From assembly GCA_020721005.1 (NCBI GenBank), contig DYNP01000011.1, positions 56,337-120,336 of the forward strand: a DNA stretch of 64,000 bases, in the 5' to 3' direction. The translations under genes and the position numbers were made by a program. This DNA is from Thiomargarita sp. GTDB lineage: Bacteria; Pseudomonadota; Gammaproteobacteria; Beggiatoales; Beggiatoaceae. Positions 27,052-37,172 of this stretch are shown here, one piece after another (position 1 is the stretch's first letter; each line of letters opens with the position of its first letter). The notes under the pieces are model-generated. The model saw only the letters and a list, made by a program, of their open reading frames with translations, made no database searches and was not told where the DNA came from.

Positions 27052-29325
27052 ATGTTCAATTTATTTAACAAGAATCAAGAAACTATTCCTGACCCCAAAA
27101 CTCCAGTTTTTTTGTTAAAATCCCTGCAAGTCCAAGCTGTCAATTTTGATGGTTTTACCAGAGGAATTGACAATGTGCATGTGGATGTGCATTTAAGTTC
27201 CCATTTCATTCAATTATCCCAAAGTTTGATTAAAGATCTGCTAGAGGAACGCAGCAGCACCAAAAGGCGTTTTTCAGATAAACCCTCGGCAGTTTTGTGC
27301 GAACAATTGGAGGCTTTTAATGGCAGTTATGCTTCTATGCTGACTGCCGCTTTACACAGAGCAAGAGAAGATAAGGCCTTGCAATTTATTCAACTTTTTC
27401 AATTGTCCGTGATGAAATTTGTGTTGAATACGGTGCAAACCAAAGCGGAACAATTGCTGTATGAATTGAGGAAGTTGGGCAATCAGGAAGACAAAAAATC
27501 TCTGGAATTGAGTGAACGCATTCGTTGGATTCACAGAAACTATAACAATTTGATTTATCAAGTTAATTATGAGTTGTTTGAACAGTTACATTGGGTAGAA
27601 ATGGGTCCCCTAAAAAGTCTTAGAGAGTCATTGTTGGGCGTCAGTTGGTCAATTTCTGAAGAAATGATGTTTAATCCTCTATTATATACTCCGGATATTC
27701 ATCATCATGAAGTGGTGATGAGATATTATGTACTGCTGTCTCAAGACCCGGACAGCAGTTATGGTTTTGATCGGTTAAGCAGTTGGGTCGATATGTTATT
27801 GGAAGATATTGGCACATTATGCCCGATTCAATTGATTGCCAGTTCAGATCATATTTTAGTTTCGGATAACCAAAATCCTGAACTTTCCTTGTCTTGGAAA
27901 GATGTTACTGACAATGTGAATGAATTGCTTGATGCGGGCACTACTCAGCGGACTCTTGAAGAATTGTCCACTCCAAATCCTGAGTTATCAGCCAAACTGC
28001 AATGTCAACAAAAAGCTTATAAATTGTTTGAACAACAATTGCGTCAAGCTCAATTGCTCCCCTTTATTTTAGCCGCTTACAGCACTCCACAATTGTATGA
28101 GCACTATGCCAAATTGCTTAAACCTTACCTGATCTTCCAAACTTTATGTGGAGAGCTGGAAATCAAAGATTTTGCCGTCACCTTACAAAATCAGCAAAAA
28201 TTAAGACCTTTGCGTCGTCAAGGAGACAAACAGTTGAGCGCAGATGATTTGATTCGGGTCAAAAAACAACTGCAAAAATTGGCTAAACAACCGATTTCAA
28301 ACAAGGTCTTGGAGTTTCTCAAAGGGTTTATCGCTTATCGTAGAGACAAGAAATTTCACCAGTTGATTCAAGAGGGAATTGCCGATATTCATTTGGTCAA
28401 TGAAGAGGCTGATGTTCAATTGTCCAGGGCTAATGGGTTATTGCATGAATTTTTGGAACAAAATGAATATACCAATTCTACTGATTCCATTCGTTGCCAT
28501 GTCATTCTCAAAGCAGATTTGAGGGGCTCTACGACTATTACCGCAGAATTGTGCAAACGAGGCTTAAATCCAGCCACCCATTTCAGTCGCAATTTTTTCA
28601 ATCCCATTCGTCAATTAATTGAGGATTTTGGGGCAGAAAAAGTATTTATTGAAGGTGATGCGGTTATTCTGAGCATTTTCGAATATCACAATGCCCCGGA
28701 ACAATGGTTGGCCACGGCACGAGCTTGTGGATTGGCGCAAAGCATGTTGCAGGTGGTGCAAGTTCAAAATCAATTTTGTCGAGCTTATAATTTGCCCATT
28801 TTGGAATTGGGCATTGGTATTTGTTATGCCCCCCACCCTCCTCAATTTTTATATGATGGTAATCAACGCATTATGATCTCTCCAGCCATTGGAGATGCTG
28901 ATCGACTGTCTTCTTGTTCCTGGAAATTGCGACAAAAATATGCCAATTCTCCTCATTTGTTGACCAATGTAATGGTATTTCAACAACCTCCGACTGATCA
29001 TTTTAAAGGGGAAAAGGGCATGACCACCTTTCGTTATAATTTAAACGGCATTGAATTGGATGCAGCCGCTTTCAAAAAATTACAAAAAGAAATTGCTTTG
29101 CGCCAAATTGATTTGACTTTGACTGGGGACAGTTATCCCACTGCTTTTTACTTGGGTAATTACTCTAATGCTAAGGGAGAAACTCAAGAGGTGATTATAC
29201 GTGAAGGTCGGATTCAAATTTGGCAGGATCAAGACAATTACTATCCTCCTACAGATACTTTTTACTACGAAGTGGTAAGCCATAAAGAGATCCTTAACTT
29301 GATCAAACATGCTTTTTTGAAATAA
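27052..29325 (+). CDS. Large protein with class III nucleotidyl-cyclase-like domain
   Basis: 757 residues, no signal peptide. Residues 1-480 are helical and unrecognised. Residues ~485-640 read like a class III cyclase: VILKADLRGST at ~489 (first metal Asp), FIEGDAVILSIFE at ~532 (second metal Asp), LGIGICYAP, and SPAIGDADRLSS at ~608. Two canonical positions differ: the base-specifying Lys before GD is Phe, and the transition-state Asn of VNxAARL is Gly, while the Arg is kept. A ~100-residue tail follows. Activity could be altered or lost; a sensor or pseudo-cyclase is possible. AGAAGG precedes the ATG. Monocistronic. Confidence 0.75.
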   Translation: MFNLFNKNQETIPDPKTPVFLLKSLQVQAVNFDGFTRGIDNVHVDVHLSSHFIQLSQSLIKDLLEERSSTKRRFSDKPSAVLCEQLEAFNGSYASMLTAALHRAREDKALQFIQLFQLSVMKFVLNTVQTKAEQLLYELRKLGNQEDKKSLELSERIRWIHRNYNNLIYQVNYELFEQLHWVEMGPLKSLRESLLGVSWSISEEMMFNPLLYTPDIHHHEVVMRYYVLLSQDPDSSYGFDRLSSWVDMLLEDIGTLCPIQLIASSDHILVSDNQNPELSLSWKDVTDNVNELLDAGTTQRTLEELSTPNPELSAKLQCQQKAYKLFEQQLRQAQLLPFILAAYSTPQLYEHYAKLLKPYLIFQTLCGELEIKDFAVTLQNQQKLRPLRRQGDKQLSADDLIRVKKQLQKLAKQPISNKVLEFLKGFIAYRRDKKFHQLIQEGIADIHLVNEEADVQLSRANGLLHEFLEQNEYTNSTDSIRCHVILKADLRGSTTITAELCKRGLNPATHFSRNFFNPIRQLIEDFGAEKVFIEGDAVILSIFEYHNAPEQWLATARACGLAQSMLQVVQVQNQFCRAYNLPILELGIGICYAPHPPQFLYDGNQRIMISPAIGDADRLSSCSWKLRQKYANSPHLLTNVMVFQQPPTDHFKGEKGMTTFRYNLNGIELDAAAFKKLQKEIALRQIDLTLTGDSYPTAFYLGNYSNAKGETQEVIIREGRIQIWQDQDNYYPPTDTFYYEVVSHKEILNLIKHAFLK

Positions 29326-29541
29326 TCCAAAATAGTCACTTTTTAATAAAAATATTTGATTTCATTGATAATAATGAGCAACTACTTTCCTTAGCATTTG
29401 TAATTTTTGCCACTTAATGTTTTTTACTTTACTTTAACCCAAAATTATGCTATTTTAATAATACTGTCACTGTGAGTTATTTCACAATCAGTGGCTTTGA
29501 CTGTCTGTTATTTTAATCATTTTATTGAAAGGTAGTTCCGT

Positions 29542-29889
29542 ATGCAAAAAATCATTTTAGGTTTGACCGCAGTTGTACTTAGTTTAGGCTTATCCATGTC
29601 AACTTATGCTGCTGAAGAAGCCGTAGCCGCAGAAGCAACAAAAGAAGCCGCAGCAGCTCCTGCTGCTGACGCTAAAGCCGCCACTGCTGCAGATGCTCCC
29701 GCTATGGTAGTTACCATGACCGATGGCAAATGTATGGCCACCCCTAAAGACGCTGACAAAGCTGTCGTAGTCACTGTCAGCAAGTCCGAAACCGAAGGCA
29801 AATTCGACGTTAAAGGCGAAGATGGCGCAGTTGTCACCACCGTTGATAGCTTAGATGTCGTGGCTGAAGAGTGCAAACCTAAGGAATAA
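29542..29889 (+). CDS. Small secreted Ala-rich protein
   Basis: 115 residues with a clear signal peptide (MQKIILGLTAVVLSLGLSMS followed by TYAA), an Ala/Glu-rich linker of low complexity, then a compact segment of ~65 residues with two Cys (GKCMAT and EECKPKE) that could close a disulfide. AAAGG precedes the ATG. A strong terminator follows at 29929. The gene stands alone and looks highly expressed (strong signals on both sides), but I do not recognise the family. Confidence 0.85.
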   Translation: MQKIILGLTAVVLSLGLSMSTYAAEEAVAAEATKEAAAAPAADAKAATAADAPAMVVTMTDGKCMATPKDADKAVVVTVSKSETEGKFDVKGEDGAVVTTVDSLDVVAEECKPKE

Positions 29890-29928
29890 CCTAGAACAAA
29901 TAATATTATCGGCGTGAAGTAACATCTT

Positions 29929-29965
29929 GAAAATGGGGGAACTTACAGTTTCCCCATTTTCTTTT
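29929..29965 (+). terminator. Rho-independent terminator
   Basis: A 14-bp stem (GAAAATGGGGGAAC against GTTTCCCCATTTTC, one G-U pair) with a 5-base loop and a trailing CTTTT, 40 bases after the small secreted protein gene. Confidence 0.85.
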
Positions 29966-30117
29966 CAGCCTACAATTTCCCCTCTTGCTAAGTTCTAACC
30001 TATACTGGTTTAAGCCCAAATCAGGCTTCCCCTCAATCCTCCCTCTTGACTACTTGCTATTCTTCAACAAAACAAGTACTATTCACCCATCACAATTTAG
30101 GATTCGGAGTCGTATAC

Positions 30118-30993
30118 ATGTTTCAAGGCAGTATCGTGGCATTGGTCACCCCAATGTTGGAAGATGGCAGTTTAGATGAAGTATCATTGCGCCAACTGGT
30201 CGATTATCACATCGCGCAACAAACCGACGGTATCGTAGCCGTAGGTACTACTGGAGAGTCAGCTACTCTCAATCACGATGAACACTGTGAAGTTATCCGT
30301 ATTGTCGTAGAGCAAGCCGCAGGTCGCGTGCCAGTGATTGGAGGTACTGGTTCCAATTCCACTGCAGAGGCCATAGAGTATACCCGTTGTGCCCAAAAAA
30401 TAGGCGCAGACGCCTGTTTACTCGTCACTCCCTACTATAATAAACCCACTCAAGAAGGTCTCTATCGGCACTACAAAGCCATTGCCGAAGCAGTAGACAT
30501 TCCCCAATTTCTCTACAACGTTCCCGGCCGAACGGGTTGCGACTTGCTCCCTGAGACCGTAAAACGGTTGGTCCACATCGACAATATTGTTGGCATCAAA
30601 GAAGCCGTGGGTGACCTCAAACGTATCCATGCCCTTATTGAATTGGCCAGCGACCAATTTGTTATTTTCAGCGGAGATGATGCCACCGCCATGGAGCTGA
30701 TCTTAGCCGGTGGCAAAGGCACCATCTCTGTCACTGCCAACGTTGCCCCCCAAGCCATGCACCAAATGTGTCAACTGGCCTTACAAGGAAATCGGGCAGG
30801 TGCAGAAGCCATCAATCAACGTCTGATGGGACTTCACAAAAACTTATTCATTGAACCCAATCCCATTCCAGTCAAATGGGCAGTTCACACTCAGGGACTT
30901 ATTCCTTCTGGCATTCGACTTCCTTTAACCCCTTTATCCAGTATATATTACTCCACCGTTAAACAAGCCATGAAAGAAGCGGGAGTCATTTAA
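30118..30993 (+). CDS. dapA: 4-hydroxy-tetrahydrodipicolinate synthase
   Basis: Condenses pyruvate with aspartate semialdehyde in the lysine and diaminopimelate pathway. 291 residues from MFQGSIVALVTPM, with GTTGESATL, YNVPGRTGCDLLP (catalytic Tyr and carboxylate-binding Arg) and Schiff-base Lys in VGIKEAVGDL. I start at the ATG preceded by GGAG; the frame continues upstream without signal. It heads the dapA-lipoprotein-bamC-yggU-adk cluster, and dapA-bamC adjacency is conserved in gammaproteobacteria. Confidence 0.97.
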   Translation: MFQGSIVALVTPMLEDGSLDEVSLRQLVDYHIAQQTDGIVAVGTTGESATLNHDEHCEVIRIVVEQAAGRVPVIGGTGSNSTAEAIEYTRCAQKIGADACLLVTPYYNKPTQEGLYRHYKAIAEAVDIPQFLYNVPGRTGCDLLPETVKRLVHIDNIVGIKEAVGDLKRIHALIELASDQFVIFSGDDATAMELILAGGKGTISVTANVAPQAMHQMCQLALQGNRAGAEAINQRLMGLHKNLFIEPNPIPVKWAVHTQGLIPSGIRLPLTPLSSIYYSTVKQAMKEAGVI

Positions 30994-31017
30994 CATTTCC
31001 AACTGACTGGTGAGCCC

Positions 31018-31191
31018 ATGCCTTCTCTCAAAATTATTATTAGCCTTGCACTGATATTACAACTGATCACAGGATGTGGAATAGCCACCCGTTTCCTAGA
31101 CCAAACCTGGGTTGACAAGAGAACCGTTTATCCTAAACCGCACCCCTTGCCCCCATTAGAGATTCCCCCTGAATTGGGCACCTCCAATTGA
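31018..31191 (+). CDS. 57-residue lipoprotein resembling only the BamC N-terminal tail
   Basis: A short gene between dapA and bamC. MPSLKIIISLALILQLITGC is a lipoprotein signal with lipobox ITGC. The mature part is ~38 residues and contains YPKPHPLPPLEIPPEL, nearly the same as NDTLPPLELPPTL in the neighbouring BamC. In BamC this unstructured segment binds BamD. GGTGAG precedes the ATG, 24 bases after the dapA stop. Signal, spacing and the shared motif argue that it is real; a role at the BAM complex is inference. Confidence 0.75.
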   Translation: MPSLKIIISLALILQLITGCGIATRFLDQTWVDKRTVYPKPHPLPPLEIPPELGTSN

Positions 31192-31439
31192 GCTATAACA
31201 AGTTTCACCCCTGCTCCGCCCAATTTCTGGTTCCAATTCTCCCAGCCAGCTATTCCCCAATCTTCCTTGGCAGAAACTTAAACCAGTCAGTTTCCTTGAA
31301 AACTGACTCGTTTTATTCCAAACTCATTTTAAACACCTTCGTTTGCAAACTCGTCAGATTTTAAAAACCTGGCAGACTTTACGATTAAATGCCCACCCCA
31401 TTCTTTACCAAACGACTCCATAAACGAGATCACAAAACC

Positions 31440-32150
31440 ATGTTGAAATTACCCCACCTGTTGCTATTTAGCCTAGTCACCGGATCAATACTCATGGGAT
31501 GTGCCACACAATCAATCAGTTACCCTCCCAATTATCGAAAAAATGACACACTTCCCCCCTTAGAACTGCCCCCCACACTCTCTCCCACCAAAGCTGAAGA
31601 ACAACTGGTCATTCCCCAAGTCGCCTCCTCAAAAAATACCACAGAATCAGTACCTTCCTCTGGCAATTCCAAACTGTTGCCTACTTTCAAACACGTTAAA
31701 ATCCAACAACAAGCCAACTCCCGAACACTACTTATTACCAGTCCTGTGGAACAACTCTGGCCAAAAATTCAAGAATTCTGGAAAACTCAAGGCTTTACTT
31801 TCAGCGTGATCGATGCTGAAACCGGTATTTTAGAAACGGATTGGCAAGAAAATCGGCCAGTAATTCCAGAAGGGGGATTGCGTGGCCTCATTGGCAAAGT
31901 ACTCAACAATGCCCATTCTGCCTCCACCCGCGACAAATTCCGAACTCGATTGGCCCGTGGCTCTCAACCAGACACCACTGAATTATATTTAACCCACAAA
32001 GGCATGGAAGAAGTCTCTCAACACGACAGTTTCGTATGGCAATCCCGTCCCACTGACCCAGAATTGGAAATGGAATTTCTGAACCGACTCATGACATTCC
32101 TTGGAAATACTCTGTCTTCACTGACTCCCAATTCCCACTTAACCAACTGA
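31440..32150 (+). CDS. bamC: Outer membrane assembly lipoprotein BamC
   Basis: Accessory lipoprotein of the BAM complex. 236 residues from MLKLPHLLLFSLVTGSILMGC, with lipobox LMGC, a Pro-rich BamD-binding tail, then two helix-grip domains (LLITSPVEQLWPKIQEFWKT, ILETDWQENRPVIPEG; FRTRLARG, TELYLTHKGMEEV). It is shorter than the enterobacterial protein (about 340), suggesting a reduced second domain. An upstream in-frame ATG at 31389 would spoil the lipoprotein signal. It lies 248 bases after the small paralogous lipoprotein. Confidence 0.9.
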   Translation: MLKLPHLLLFSLVTGSILMGCATQSISYPPNYRKNDTLPPLELPPTLSPTKAEEQLVIPQVASSKNTTESVPSSGNSKLLPTFKHVKIQQQANSRTLLITSPVEQLWPKIQEFWKTQGFTFSVIDAETGILETDWQENRPVIPEGGLRGLIGKVLNNAHSASTRDKFRTRLARGSQPDTTELYLTHKGMEEVSQHDSFVWQSRPTDPELEMEFLNRLMTFLGNTLSSLTPNSHLTN

Positions 32151-32154
32151 ATTT

Positions 32155-33193
<1,039 letters not shown>

Positions 33194-33241
33194 CCAAACT
33201 TAACGATTAAAAACTTTGAATAAGTGGTAGTGATCAGACTT

Positions 33242-33299
33242 CCTCATTCCCTTTCTTAAAAATTCTGGGTAAACCAATGATTTAAGATTGGGAATGAGG
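33242..33299. repeat. Small inverted repeat downstream of adk
   Basis: CCTCATTCCC (33242-33251) faces GGGAATGAGG (33290-33299) across 38 bases. It may serve as a terminator-like structure or a miniature repeat. The 273-base gap to mltF holds no gene I can support. Confidence 0.4.
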
Positions 33300-33466
33300 G
33301 GAAAATTGAGGACAGCAAAATTCCCTTTTGTTCGATCTTCAAACAGGTAGATAGATAAATACACCCAATGACCCTCCCCATCGATTCTCCTAGATTCTTG
33401 AAAAGTATTCCCTCCAACACCCCCTAGGCGAATCATCTGCTCTATTTAAACAAGGAGATGATGTGA

Positions 33467-34885
33467 GTGAAAATTTTGACAACATTACTCTTGGGACTTA
33501 TCACCCTCTTCTACACTCAACAACCTACCATACTGGAACAAATTTTAGCCAACAAGGAATTACGAGCCGTCACCCGTTACAATCCCACCACCTATTACGA
33601 TGGTCCCACTGGAAAAGCGGGTTTGGAATACGATTTACTTAAACGTTTCACCAAAGAATTGGACGTCAAACTGACCCTTGTGGTCGTGGATAATTTTGAA
33701 GCAGTGTTGGAGAACATTATCCAACAAGAAGTGCACCTGGCTGCAGCTGGACTGGCCATTGACGACACCCAAAGACCTTCCATTCGCTTCGGTCCCCCGT
33801 ATCAACACATCAGCCACCAACTCATTTTCCGCAAAGGTGTCCTTCCATTACCCACAAAATTGGCTGAATTCACTCCCAACCACGTTTTAAACATCATCGC
33901 CGCCGGCAACCAAATTTCCCTTGTTCACCAACTCAAAAATCAATATCCTCAACTGGTTTGGCGAATTCTCCCCGACGTTGAACCCGGTGAAATGTTGGAA
34001 CAAATCTGGGAAGGGGAAATCAACTATGCAGTTGTAGATTCCAATGAAATTGCCCAAATTCGCCGTTTTTATCCGGAATTGGAAGTCGCCATGGAATTGC
34101 CCCAACGTCAAAAATTAGCCTGGGCTTTTCCACAAACCACAGACAACAGCCTCTATTTGGCCGTGGTCAAATTCTTCCACAAATTGCGTCGCAAAGGAGA
34201 ACTTGCCCAACTGATAGAACGTTACTATGGGCATATTGACCAAAAAGAACAATTTGATTACGTTAATATTCGAGTATTTCATCGCCACATTGTGGAACGC
34301 TTGCCCAAATACAGGGAACAATTTGAAAAAATAGCCGCCCGTTACCATCTGGATTGGCGCCTTCTGGCTGCACTTGGCTATGAAGAGTCCAAATGGGACC
34401 CAACTGCAGTCTCTATGACTGGAGTTCGTGGACTGATGATGCTGACCCAATCCACGGCTAAGGAAATGGGGGTAACTAACCGCGATGATCCGTTACAAAG
34501 TATTGAGGGAGGAACCCGTTACCTCTTGTCTTTAAAGGACAAAATTGATTCTCATATTCCAGAGCCTGATCGCACTTGGTTTGCACTGGCTGCCTATAAT
34601 GTGGGACTTGGTCACCTAAGAGATGCCATGAAAATTACCGTTTGGCAAGGAGGCAACCCTCATCGATGGGTGGATGTCAAAAAACACCTTCCCAAATTGA
34701 GCGAAGAAATTTGGTATAAAAAAACCCCACATGGTCAAGCCCGTGGTTATGAACCTGTTAAAATGGTAAAAAATGTTCGAAAATTTTATGACATTTTAGT
34801 TCGTTATGATACCAAAACTAAAAAAGATTTACCTAAATATTACCCTCCCAATCCCCCTTATCTTTTCGACCTTCCCCCCTTGTAA
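33467..34885 (+). CDS. mltF: Membrane-bound lytic transglycosylase F
   Basis: Cleaves peptidoglycan to 1,6-anhydromuropeptides. 472 residues starting at GTG, with AAGGAG 9 bases upstream. A short N-terminal hydrophobic segment (ILTTLLLGLITLFY) serves as signal or anchor. Residues ~28-260 are a periplasmic-binding-protein-like domain (LRAVTRYNPTTYYDGP). From ~285 comes the SLT domain with catalytic Glu in ALGYEESKWDPTAVS, then GLMMLTQSTAKEMG and FALAAYNVGLGHL. This domain order defines MltF. Confidence 0.93.
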   Translation: MKILTTLLLGLITLFYTQQPTILEQILANKELRAVTRYNPTTYYDGPTGKAGLEYDLLKRFTKELDVKLTLVVVDNFEAVLENIIQQEVHLAAAGLAIDDTQRPSIRFGPPYQHISHQLIFRKGVLPLPTKLAEFTPNHVLNIIAAGNQISLVHQLKNQYPQLVWRILPDVEPGEMLEQIWEGEINYAVVDSNEIAQIRRFYPELEVAMELPQRQKLAWAFPQTTDNSLYLAVVKFFHKLRRKGELAQLIERYYGHIDQKEQFDYVNIRVFHRHIVERLPKYREQFEKIAARYHLDWRLLAALGYEESKWDPTAVSMTGVRGLMMLTQSTAKEMGVTNRDDPLQSIEGGTRYLLSLKDKIDSHIPEPDRTWFALAAYNVGLGHLRDAMKITVWQGGNPHRWVDVKKHLPKLSEEIWYKKTPHGQARGYEPVKMVKNVRKFYDILVRYDTKTKKDLPKYYPPNPPYLFDLPPL

Positions 34886-34931: not shown

Positions 34932-37172
34932 ATGATTATGATGGTTCGCCTGTTTAGCCACATTTTGGTAGGAATCCTTTTACTTCTCATTCACCCTATT
35001 GCACCCGTTCATTCCCAAGAGCCCTCTCATCCACGACTCAAAGTGGGCCTTGCCCTTTCCGGAGGAGGTGCTCGAGGAATTGCTCATATTGGAGTATTAG
35101 AAGCTCTAGAAGAATTACAAGTTCCCATCGATTACATTGCTGGGACCAGTATGGGCAGCATTGTTGGGGGACTGTATGCCAGCGGTATGAGTATTCAAGA
35201 ATTGCGTAAAGCGGTTGAAGATATGAACTGGGAACATGTTTTACAACTCAAAGCCAATCGAGACCAACTGTCCTATCGGGAAAAACAGAATCAACGTCGT
35301 TACTTTAATTTTGAATTTGGACTCAATGCCCACGGTCAACTCAATGCCCCTTCTGGATTTATTGCCAGTCAAGAATTATTTCTGGAACTCAAAAAATTAA
35401 CTAAAAACTTAACCATAGACGACTTTGGAAAATTACCCATCCCATTTAAAGCCGTGGCCACTGACTTGGCAAATCCCAAAGCTCCTTACCTGTTAGAAAA
35501 GGGGGAATTAGCCTTGGCAATGCGCGCTTCCATGGCAATTCCCTTTGCATTTTCTCCCATTACAATAGAAGGCCATTTATTAGTTGATGGGGGAATTGTC
35601 AACAACATTCCCGTAGATATTGTACGAAACATGGGCGCTGATATTGTCATTGCAGTTGACATTGCCACTCCGGTCTCTAGTCAAATTGACTCTGGCAGTT
35701 CCCTACTGACCGTAGCCAAACAATCCCTAGATATTGCTTTGATTCAAAACGCAATTAGAATTTTAAAGGAAGCAGATATCATTGTGGAACCTGTATTGGG
35801 CGACCTGACCATCACCGATTTTGACAAAAGTGCTGACATGATTCAACGCGGGCGAGAAGCCATTTTCAGTCGACAAGCCGCTTTCAGCCCCTTGCGCATG
35901 AATATTCAAGACTATCGGCGCTATCGCCATCAACAACAACAGCGCCAACCGATATCTCCCCAAACTACCCTAACTCCCCGCTTTATCGAAATTGTCGGGG
36001 AACAGCGCACTTCTCGCTCCACCATTTTGCACCAAGTGGAAAATTTGAAAAATCGAACACTCGTTTTTCCAGAAGAAGTGGAAGAAGCTGTTTACCGAAT
36101 CATGACCCTTAAAGAATTTGAACATGTCAATTACAGTTTAACCCATGATCTTAAGGGACAAAAAGGACTGCTATTCCAAGTTCGCGAAAAATCTTGGGGA
36201 CCCCATTATTTTCAACTGGGTTTAAATGCCTCCACCTCTTTTGACAACAAAATTGAATTCACCCTGTTGGGTCGTTATGAACGACTGAACTTGAATTCTT
36301 TGGGAGGAGAATGGATCAATGAATTGGAAGTGGGAACTGGTTACCTTTTGCGCACTGAATTTTATCAACCCTTGGATTATAATCGTCGTTTTTTTATAGC
36401 CCCTTTTGCTGGTTTTGAACGAGCTTTCCCAGAAATTTTCCGAGAAGGTAAGGGAATTGCAGAATATGATGTACAAAGTCTGCGTGTGGGATTGGAATTG
36501 GGCATGAATTTTTCCAATGTAGCCGAATTACGAGTGGGACTGCAACGTAATGAAGTCGATGCCAACTTGCGAATAGGCGATCAAGAAGTCTTACCCACTG
36601 GGAAAACTCAAGAAAATTTATTAACTTTTAAATGGGGTTATGACAATCTAGATGATCGGATTTTTGCCACTCAGGGACTCAAACTTTCCTTAGAAGGCAA
36701 CGTGTATAAACGAGGCATTGGTTCCGATTTAAACTATCAACAAATCCTGTTATATGGACGGCAATACTATCCAGTCCATGCTCAAATCACCCTATTGGGA
36801 GAAATGACCTTAGCCACCGCTTTTAACTCATCCCCCCCAGAATATCAACGTTTCTCCATCGGTGGATTTGACAGTTTGGCCGGTTATCCAGAAGGAGAAA
36901 TGCGCGGCAAACATGCCTTAGTTATACGAGGAGGAAGCCTATTCCAATCGCCCTATTTACCCTTCTCTAAGACCATAGCCACCCGTTTGGCCACATTGTT
37001 CCATGTTGGTGAGGCTTGGGACTATTATGCCGATTTCAAACTGCCTGACTTGCACTATGGAGGCTCTATGTCCTTGATTTGGGACACTCGTTTTGGAACC
37101 TTACTCATGGGCTTGGGTTATACAGAAGGTGGCAGTTTGCGATATCAACTGTCTTTGGGAAGTGTATTTTAA
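34932..37172 (+). CDS. Patatin-like phospholipase with POTRA and outer-membrane barrel (type Vd)
   Basis: 746 residues. Signal peptide (MVRLFSHILVGILLLLIHPI, ending near VHSQ). Patatin domain with oxyanion motif SGGGARGIAHIG, nucleophile Ser at ~73 in GTSMGS and Asp in LLVDGGIVNN. A single POTRA-like segment (FIEIVGEQRTSRSTILHQV) precedes an Omp85-type barrel ending LSLGSVF with a terminal Phe. This matches PlpD/FplA-type autotransporters, which place the lipase at or beyond the outer membrane. It starts 46 bases after mltF. Confidence 0.92.
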   Translation: MIMMVRLFSHILVGILLLLIHPIAPVHSQEPSHPRLKVGLALSGGGARGIAHIGVLEALEELQVPIDYIAGTSMGSIVGGLYASGMSIQELRKAVEDMNWEHVLQLKANRDQLSYREKQNQRRYFNFEFGLNAHGQLNAPSGFIASQELFLELKKLTKNLTIDDFGKLPIPFKAVATDLANPKAPYLLEKGELALAMRASMAIPFAFSPITIEGHLLVDGGIVNNIPVDIVRNMGADIVIAVDIATPVSSQIDSGSSLLTVAKQSLDIALIQNAIRILKEADIIVEPVLGDLTITDFDKSADMIQRGREAIFSRQAAFSPLRMNIQDYRRYRHQQQQRQPISPQTTLTPRFIEIVGEQRTSRSTILHQVENLKNRTLVFPEEVEEAVYRIMTLKEFEHVNYSLTHDLKGQKGLLFQVREKSWGPHYFQLGLNASTSFDNKIEFTLLGRYERLNLNSLGGEWINELEVGTGYLLRTEFYQPLDYNRRFFIAPFAGFERAFPEIFREGKGIAEYDVQSLRVGLELGMNFSNVAELRVGLQRNEVDANLRIGDQEVLPTGKTQENLLTFKWGYDNLDDRIFATQGLKLSLEGNVYKRGIGSDLNYQQILLYGRQYYPVHAQITLLGEMTLATAFNSSPPEYQRFSIGGFDSLAGYPEGEMRGKHALVIRGGSLFQSPYLPFSKTIATRLATLFHVGEAWDYYADFKLPDLHYGGSMSLIWDTRFGTLLMGLGYTEGGSLRYQLSLGSVF

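Follow-up and report, generated by a model that had tools for sequence, protein, structure and literature searches.

A small gene located between dapA and bamC in Thiomargarita sp. encodes an extra, lasso-only paralogue of BamC that has kept the first half of the lasso, a conclusion that follows from homology, distribution, selection and synteny taken together. The gene lies in a 64,000-nucleotide stretch of contig DYNP01000011.1 (hereafter the window; Table 1). We consider it probable that it arose as a partial tandem copy of bamC with a single early origin, and that its product is an outer-membrane lipoprotein likely to dock in the groove of BamD used by BamC. Deletion of bamC has little effect in E. 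coli. Within BAM, the machinery for inserting proteins into the outer membrane, BamC has been termed the most mysterious subunit (PMC13067283); it stimulates BamADE (PMC11130730). In E. coli its lasso contacts BamD (PMC5056442, PMC13067283, PMC3359395), and this contact is extensive, the globular domains being mobile (PMC5056442, PMC13067283).

Table 1. Features of the dapA-bamC region, in window positions
Feature	Position	Strand	Basis
dapA	30118..30993	+	TIGR00674, E=8.3e-115
Gene of the 57-aa small lipoprotein, a BamC paralogue with the lasso only	31018..31191	+	ORF, conservation, purifying selection, profile matches with BamC tails
Signal peptide and lipobox ITGC (residues 17-20); lipidated Cys20 at 31075-31077	31018..31077	+	Sequence reading
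YPKPHPLPPLEIPPEL, lasso segment common to the small protein and BamC	31129..31176	+	Alignments, mature-only profile comparison
Palindrome resembling a bidirectional terminator, in the gap before bamC	31285..31308	.	Consensus scan, 2 found vs. 0.3 expected; suggestive only
bamC, 236 aa, lasso and one helix-grip domain, second domain missing	31440..32150	+	PF06804 positions 2-192 of 323; AF2 model
YRKNDTLPPLELPPTL, corresponding lasso segment of BamC	31533..31580	+	Sequence reading

The small protein (MPSLKIIISLALILQLITGCGIATRFLDQTWVDKRTVYPKPHPLPPLEIPPELGTSN, ATG start) has a type II lipoprotein signal peptide, as BamC does, and its lipidated cysteine is invariant in an alignment of 22 rows. In E. 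coli the residue at position +2 after this cysteine governs sorting by the Lol system, Asp being the exception to outer-membrane delivery; sorting to the outer membrane is therefore expected here, as the +2 residue is Gly. The segment LPPLEIPP corresponds to LPPLELPP in the BamC encoded downstream. No Pfam match was obtained at E<=10, and thus neither PF06804 nor DUF3035, and structure prediction gave no fold except for one helix (residues 2-33) that includes the signal peptide. The two helix-grip domains of BamC are lacking, and of the BamD-binding lasso sequence only the first half is present. As it has neither a PF06804 match nor a predicted fold, we classify the protein as a paralogue of the BamC tail and not as BamC. 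The first-pass annotation had described a 57-residue lipoprotein that shares a proline-rich segment with the adjacent BamC and is devoid of a globular domain, and the ORF, shared segment and missing domain were all found as it described them.

The gene starts 24 bp after the end of dapA, an adjacency found in most genomes of the family, with a weak ribosome-binding site (GGTGAG) 3 nt upstream of its ATG, and 248 bp separate its end from the likely start of bamC. A promoter scan directly upstream of the ORF gave nothing exceeding expectation, and no Rfam match indicative of structured RNA was found in 29000-33500. Given the terminator-like palindrome before bamC, the small gene may share the dapA transcript in this genome. 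Further out, reading of the sequence suggests a protein of 757 aa whose C-terminal region is cyclase-like (27052-29325), an MltF-like lytic transglycosylase (33467-34885) and a patatin-like protein that includes an outer-membrane barrel region (34932-37172).

A profile built from the small proteins only (A1, 22 homologues) was searched against 369 gammaproteobacterial genomes and retrieved the N-termini of BamC proteins across the class (best E 4.2e-16); the best 26 loci outside the family are all bamC genes with dapA directly upstream. Because signal peptides could inflate such matches, profiles of the mature sequence, excluding signal peptide and cysteine, were also built. All 29 BamC tails of the family scored 11.9-32.8 bits against the mature profile of the small protein, compared with 10.2 bits at most for 8,700 composition-preserving shuffles, and in the reverse test, with a profile of BamC tails, 21 of the 25 small proteins beat the best of 7,500 shuffles. 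A1 did not reach E. coli BamC in a search of the PDB; the matches there of the BamC-tail profile (A3) arise by construction, since A3 includes that sequence.

Most small proteins have a spacing of 18 residues from Cys to the conserved Tyr, compared with 17-18 for the majority of other gammaproteobacterial BamC proteins, while in BamC proteins of the same family this stretch is mostly shorter and variable. The outgroup BamC of genome G367 (CGTISAKLDEMGQDQRTDYKKSQTLPPLEVPPDL) aligns without gaps to small proteins such as CGAAIKHLDSTWLDDQTVYEKSQPLPPLEISPEL. The small protein is related to BamC along its whole mature sequence, beyond one motif. It terminates at the end of the first lasso motif, and the second (DYAIPV...RPP in E. 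coli BamC) is missing. A conserved LD(S/A)xW segment is peculiar to the small proteins: the D of its LD pair is invariant and the W is common, the latter not being a feature of BamC. The small protein of G023 lacks the conserved aromatic. The shortened distance from anchor to Tyr in BamC (median 14 vs. 18 in the small proteins) was considered as suggestive evidence for a division of labour, and was discarded because lineages devoid of the small gene also have short stretches and some cysteines were misassigned.

In order to trace the gene we used 43 genomes of the GTDB family of the window, which are also all sampled genomes of the order; the group comprises giant sulfur bacteria and relatives, and its name, Beggiatoaceae, is inferred from the named relatives Thiomargarita sp. 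and Candidatus Parabeggiatoa. The gene is single-copy in the genome of the window, and A1 detects it as a small ORF of its own in 33 of the 43. It is absent from six near-complete genomes (G006, G009, G012, G013, G015 and G040) and also missing in four less complete ones (G004, G045, G048 and G055). In a dapA tree 24 carriers are set apart by a branch with support 92/88, and the four non-carriers tested group on another with support 90/94; as carriers were identified beforehand, the tree tests clustering and not detection. The distribution is consistent with one gain and no loss, and the dapA tree behind this reading is moderately supported.

In most genomes of the family the small gene adjoins bamC. 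In G019, G043, G044 and G046, and in genus g20 (L006, L087, L125-L127), bamC has been relocated and the small gene stays by dapA, and in G018 the small gene adjoins bamC although dapA is not adjacent. The gene is thus independent of the positions of its neighbours. A few variant forms were seen. The small proteins of G010 (L118:1099-1575, 158 aa in total) and G041 (L128:1744-2175, 143 aa) have a C-terminal extension rich in Thr, Pro and Ser, a few others end in (E/D/S)PIL, and the gene of G051 (Ca. Parabeggiatoa sp. nov. 1; L095:1293-1514) has no upstream in-frame signal peptide, perhaps due to an assembly error.

We propose that the small gene would have arisen once, early in one Beggiatoaceae clade, as a partial tandem copy of bamC that kept the lipid anchor and the first lasso half (about residues 25-58 of E. 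coli BamC) and no helix-grip domain. One strong BamD was found in 41 of the 43 genomes, the remaining matches being far weaker TPR proteins, so that the small protein and BamC would share one site; a second BamD, considered as a private partner of the small protein, was not found among the 43 family genomes. In G000 BamD is encoded at 32710-33426 of contig C20. Judging from the retained motif, the small protein most likely docks on this single BamD in the groove of BamC. Competition with BamC and a regulatory effect go a step further and are inferred. The outcome could be BAM complexes with a filled groove and devoid of the mobile globular domains of BamC, or complexes in which BamC would be held by its second lasso half only. 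Position 114 of BamD is in contact with BamC within the complex, and in purified BamD it can be crosslinked to substrate (PMC10945584); occupancy of the groove could therefore affect substrate access. The likely role would be to stabilise BamD or BAM, or to tune the number of complexes with BamC domains, and not an enzymatic activity.

The strongest competing explanation, which we regard as unlikely, is that this lasso-derived lipoprotein now serves another partner, its LDxxW segment and tail binding something different from the BamC groove (e.g. the POTRA domains of BamA, another TPR protein or an envelope factor), and neither competes with BamC nor is part of BAM. It would account for the invariant D and the common W, foreign to BamC, in the LD(S/A)xW segment, for the missing second motif and for the genus that keeps the gene by dapA, apart from bamC. 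Its own segment and the absent motif indeed mean that the protein may bind more weakly, differently or elsewhere. Nevertheless, the conserved core is the lasso motif of BamC itself, at a BamC-like distance from the anchor, and the gene sits beside bamC in most genomes, both of which favour docking on BamD.

That the protein is an unrelated small lipoprotein, for example an LptM-like one, with a proline-rich segment resembling BamC by chance or convergence, is largely refuted and seems very improbable. LptM (YifL) acts on LptD. It resembles the small protein in being a very small outer-membrane lipoprotein of an OMP machine with a similar signal peptide, and the proline-rich motif is of low complexity. 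However, the weak NCBIfam match to LptM (NF047847, E=0.19, 11.9 bits vs. a cut-off of 27.7) spans residues 1-21, i.e. the signal peptide only, and leaves the mature sequence unmatched, which led us to reject an LptM identity. Furthermore, what the profile of the small proteins retrieves genome-wide is BamC linked to dapA, and shuffles that preserve the proline content do not attain the real scores.

Selection on the small gene is purifying: synonymous exceeded non-synonymous divergence (pS>pN) in 300 of 300 pairs, and dN/dS in close pairs was 0.08-0.37. The first-pass annotation had named lack of conservation, or of selection for the coding frame, as the outcome that would speak against the ORF, and neither is the case. 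In G049 a group II intron (L124:1403-4090; Rfam RF00029 match; 606-aa ORF) lies inside the small gene after TVY, and the far side carries an exact in-frame continuation, NKSKELPPLEIPSELSY; since the frame continues across both exons, splicing would give a normal small protein. Such an intact frame, the selection figures and retention in most of the family wherever bamC lies leave hardly any room for reading the short, domain-less ORF with its variable C-terminus as the decaying relic of a partly duplicated bamC, or as a leader that is translated but has no protein function.

The BamC proteins of the family have themselves been reduced. In the AF2 model of the window BamC, whose best PDB matches are E. 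coli BamC, residues 1-82 are disordered and one helix-grip domain follows; the next gene starts at 32155, five bases on. The second helix-grip domain is likewise gone in G003, G022 and G049, whereas G016, G056 and G042 retain the second domain alone. G011 BamC has neither, being a 52-aa protein (MLRLLKIVIYCLCLVGCSNNAVPDYKKSTTVPSLEIPPDLLGSIDESSKKDQ) encoded directly 3' of the small gene, so that this genome encodes two consecutive lasso-only lipoproteins. Beggiatoaceae BamC has thus repeatedly lost one or both helix-grip domains and retained the lasso.

Across the class, A3 matches 241 of the 369 genomes, and PF06804 matches 247 at E<=0.01 and 231 above its cut-off. We inspected 30 loci from genomes that have an A3 match and no, or barely any, PF06804 match. 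Lasso-only lipoproteins of 57-120 aa were found at 25 of them, in 17 other gammaproteobacterial families (L141-L158, L161, L163, L165-L169; match near 1501). Most have both lasso motifs and end where the helix-grip domain would start, and dN/dS was 0.07-0.12 in measurable pairs. Directly upstream of 21 of the 25 is dapA, and some are followed by purC; the adjacency to dapA is independent support, since the search made no use of synteny. Three of the 25 (G193, G176 and G138) belong to A3 by construction; A1, in which they are not included, had detected them first, and PF06804 has no match in their genomes at E<=10. G071 has a PF06804 match at E=0.007 only. By sequence and location, lasso-only lipoproteins stand in for BamC in these 17 families, mostly right after dapA. 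No description of a lasso-only BamC was found in the open-access papers searched.

The small protein shares with BamC the lipobox, the Cys-to-Tyr spacing, the Y..(5-8)..LPxLE(I/V)PP(D/E)L segment and the position after dapA. It differs in lacking the helix-grip domains and the second lasso motif (Y..(I/V)P....PP), in its own LD(S/A)xW segment and in coexisting with a BamC. It also resembles the lasso-only BamC proteins of other families in size, architecture and, mostly, location. Those, however, are the sole BamC of their genomes and mostly carry both motifs, whereas in Beggiatoaceae the protein is additional and has retained just the first motif. Within this sample an extra lasso protein beside a BamC occurs in the family of the window only.

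The Alphaproteobacteria provide a known case of an unrelated protein with a BamC-like motif at its N-terminus, BamF (Caulobacter CC0699, DUF3035), which is co-purified with BAM and dissociates under the conditions that also release BamD (PMC3359395). Like BamF, the small protein is a non-BamC lipoprotein with such a motif in a disordered N-terminus near the lipid anchor. BamF differs in its size of about 17.5 kDa, in having a DUF3035 domain and a gene beside signal peptidase II, and in its occurrence in BamC-less lineages (PMC3359395); the small protein has no DUF3035 domain, so that membership of the BamF family was rejected, and coexists with BamC. It extends the BamF precedent in that it consists of no more than motif and anchor and occurs alongside BamC. 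The first-pass annotation knew of no described tail-only BamC; this must be narrowed, given BamF and the lasso-only proteins of many gammaproteobacterial families: what is particular to the family of the window is a lasso-only protein additional to BamC.

The family offers a natural dissection of BamC, in which the first, the second or both domains were lost and the lasso stayed. Together with the lasso-only proteins of 17 families, these losses point to occupancy of the BamD groove as the conserved function, one that could be tested using a peptide of roughly 40 residues. An HMM survey listed 187 BamC matches for 293 gammaproteobacterial genomes (PMC3359395); the existence of lasso-only BamC and the limited reach of PF06804 above its cut-off indicate that domain-based surveys undercount BamC. 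More tentatively, and with less confidence than we place in the docking of the small protein, it is possible that what persists as the functional unit of BamC is the lasso and not its helix-grip domains, that many "BamC-less" gammaproteobacteria carry a lasso-only BamC, and that in Beggiatoaceae the second lasso lipoprotein alternates with BamC on the single BamD and so sets the share of BAM with BamC domains. The extra copy in Beggiatoaceae represents a natural case of a possible BamC competitor.
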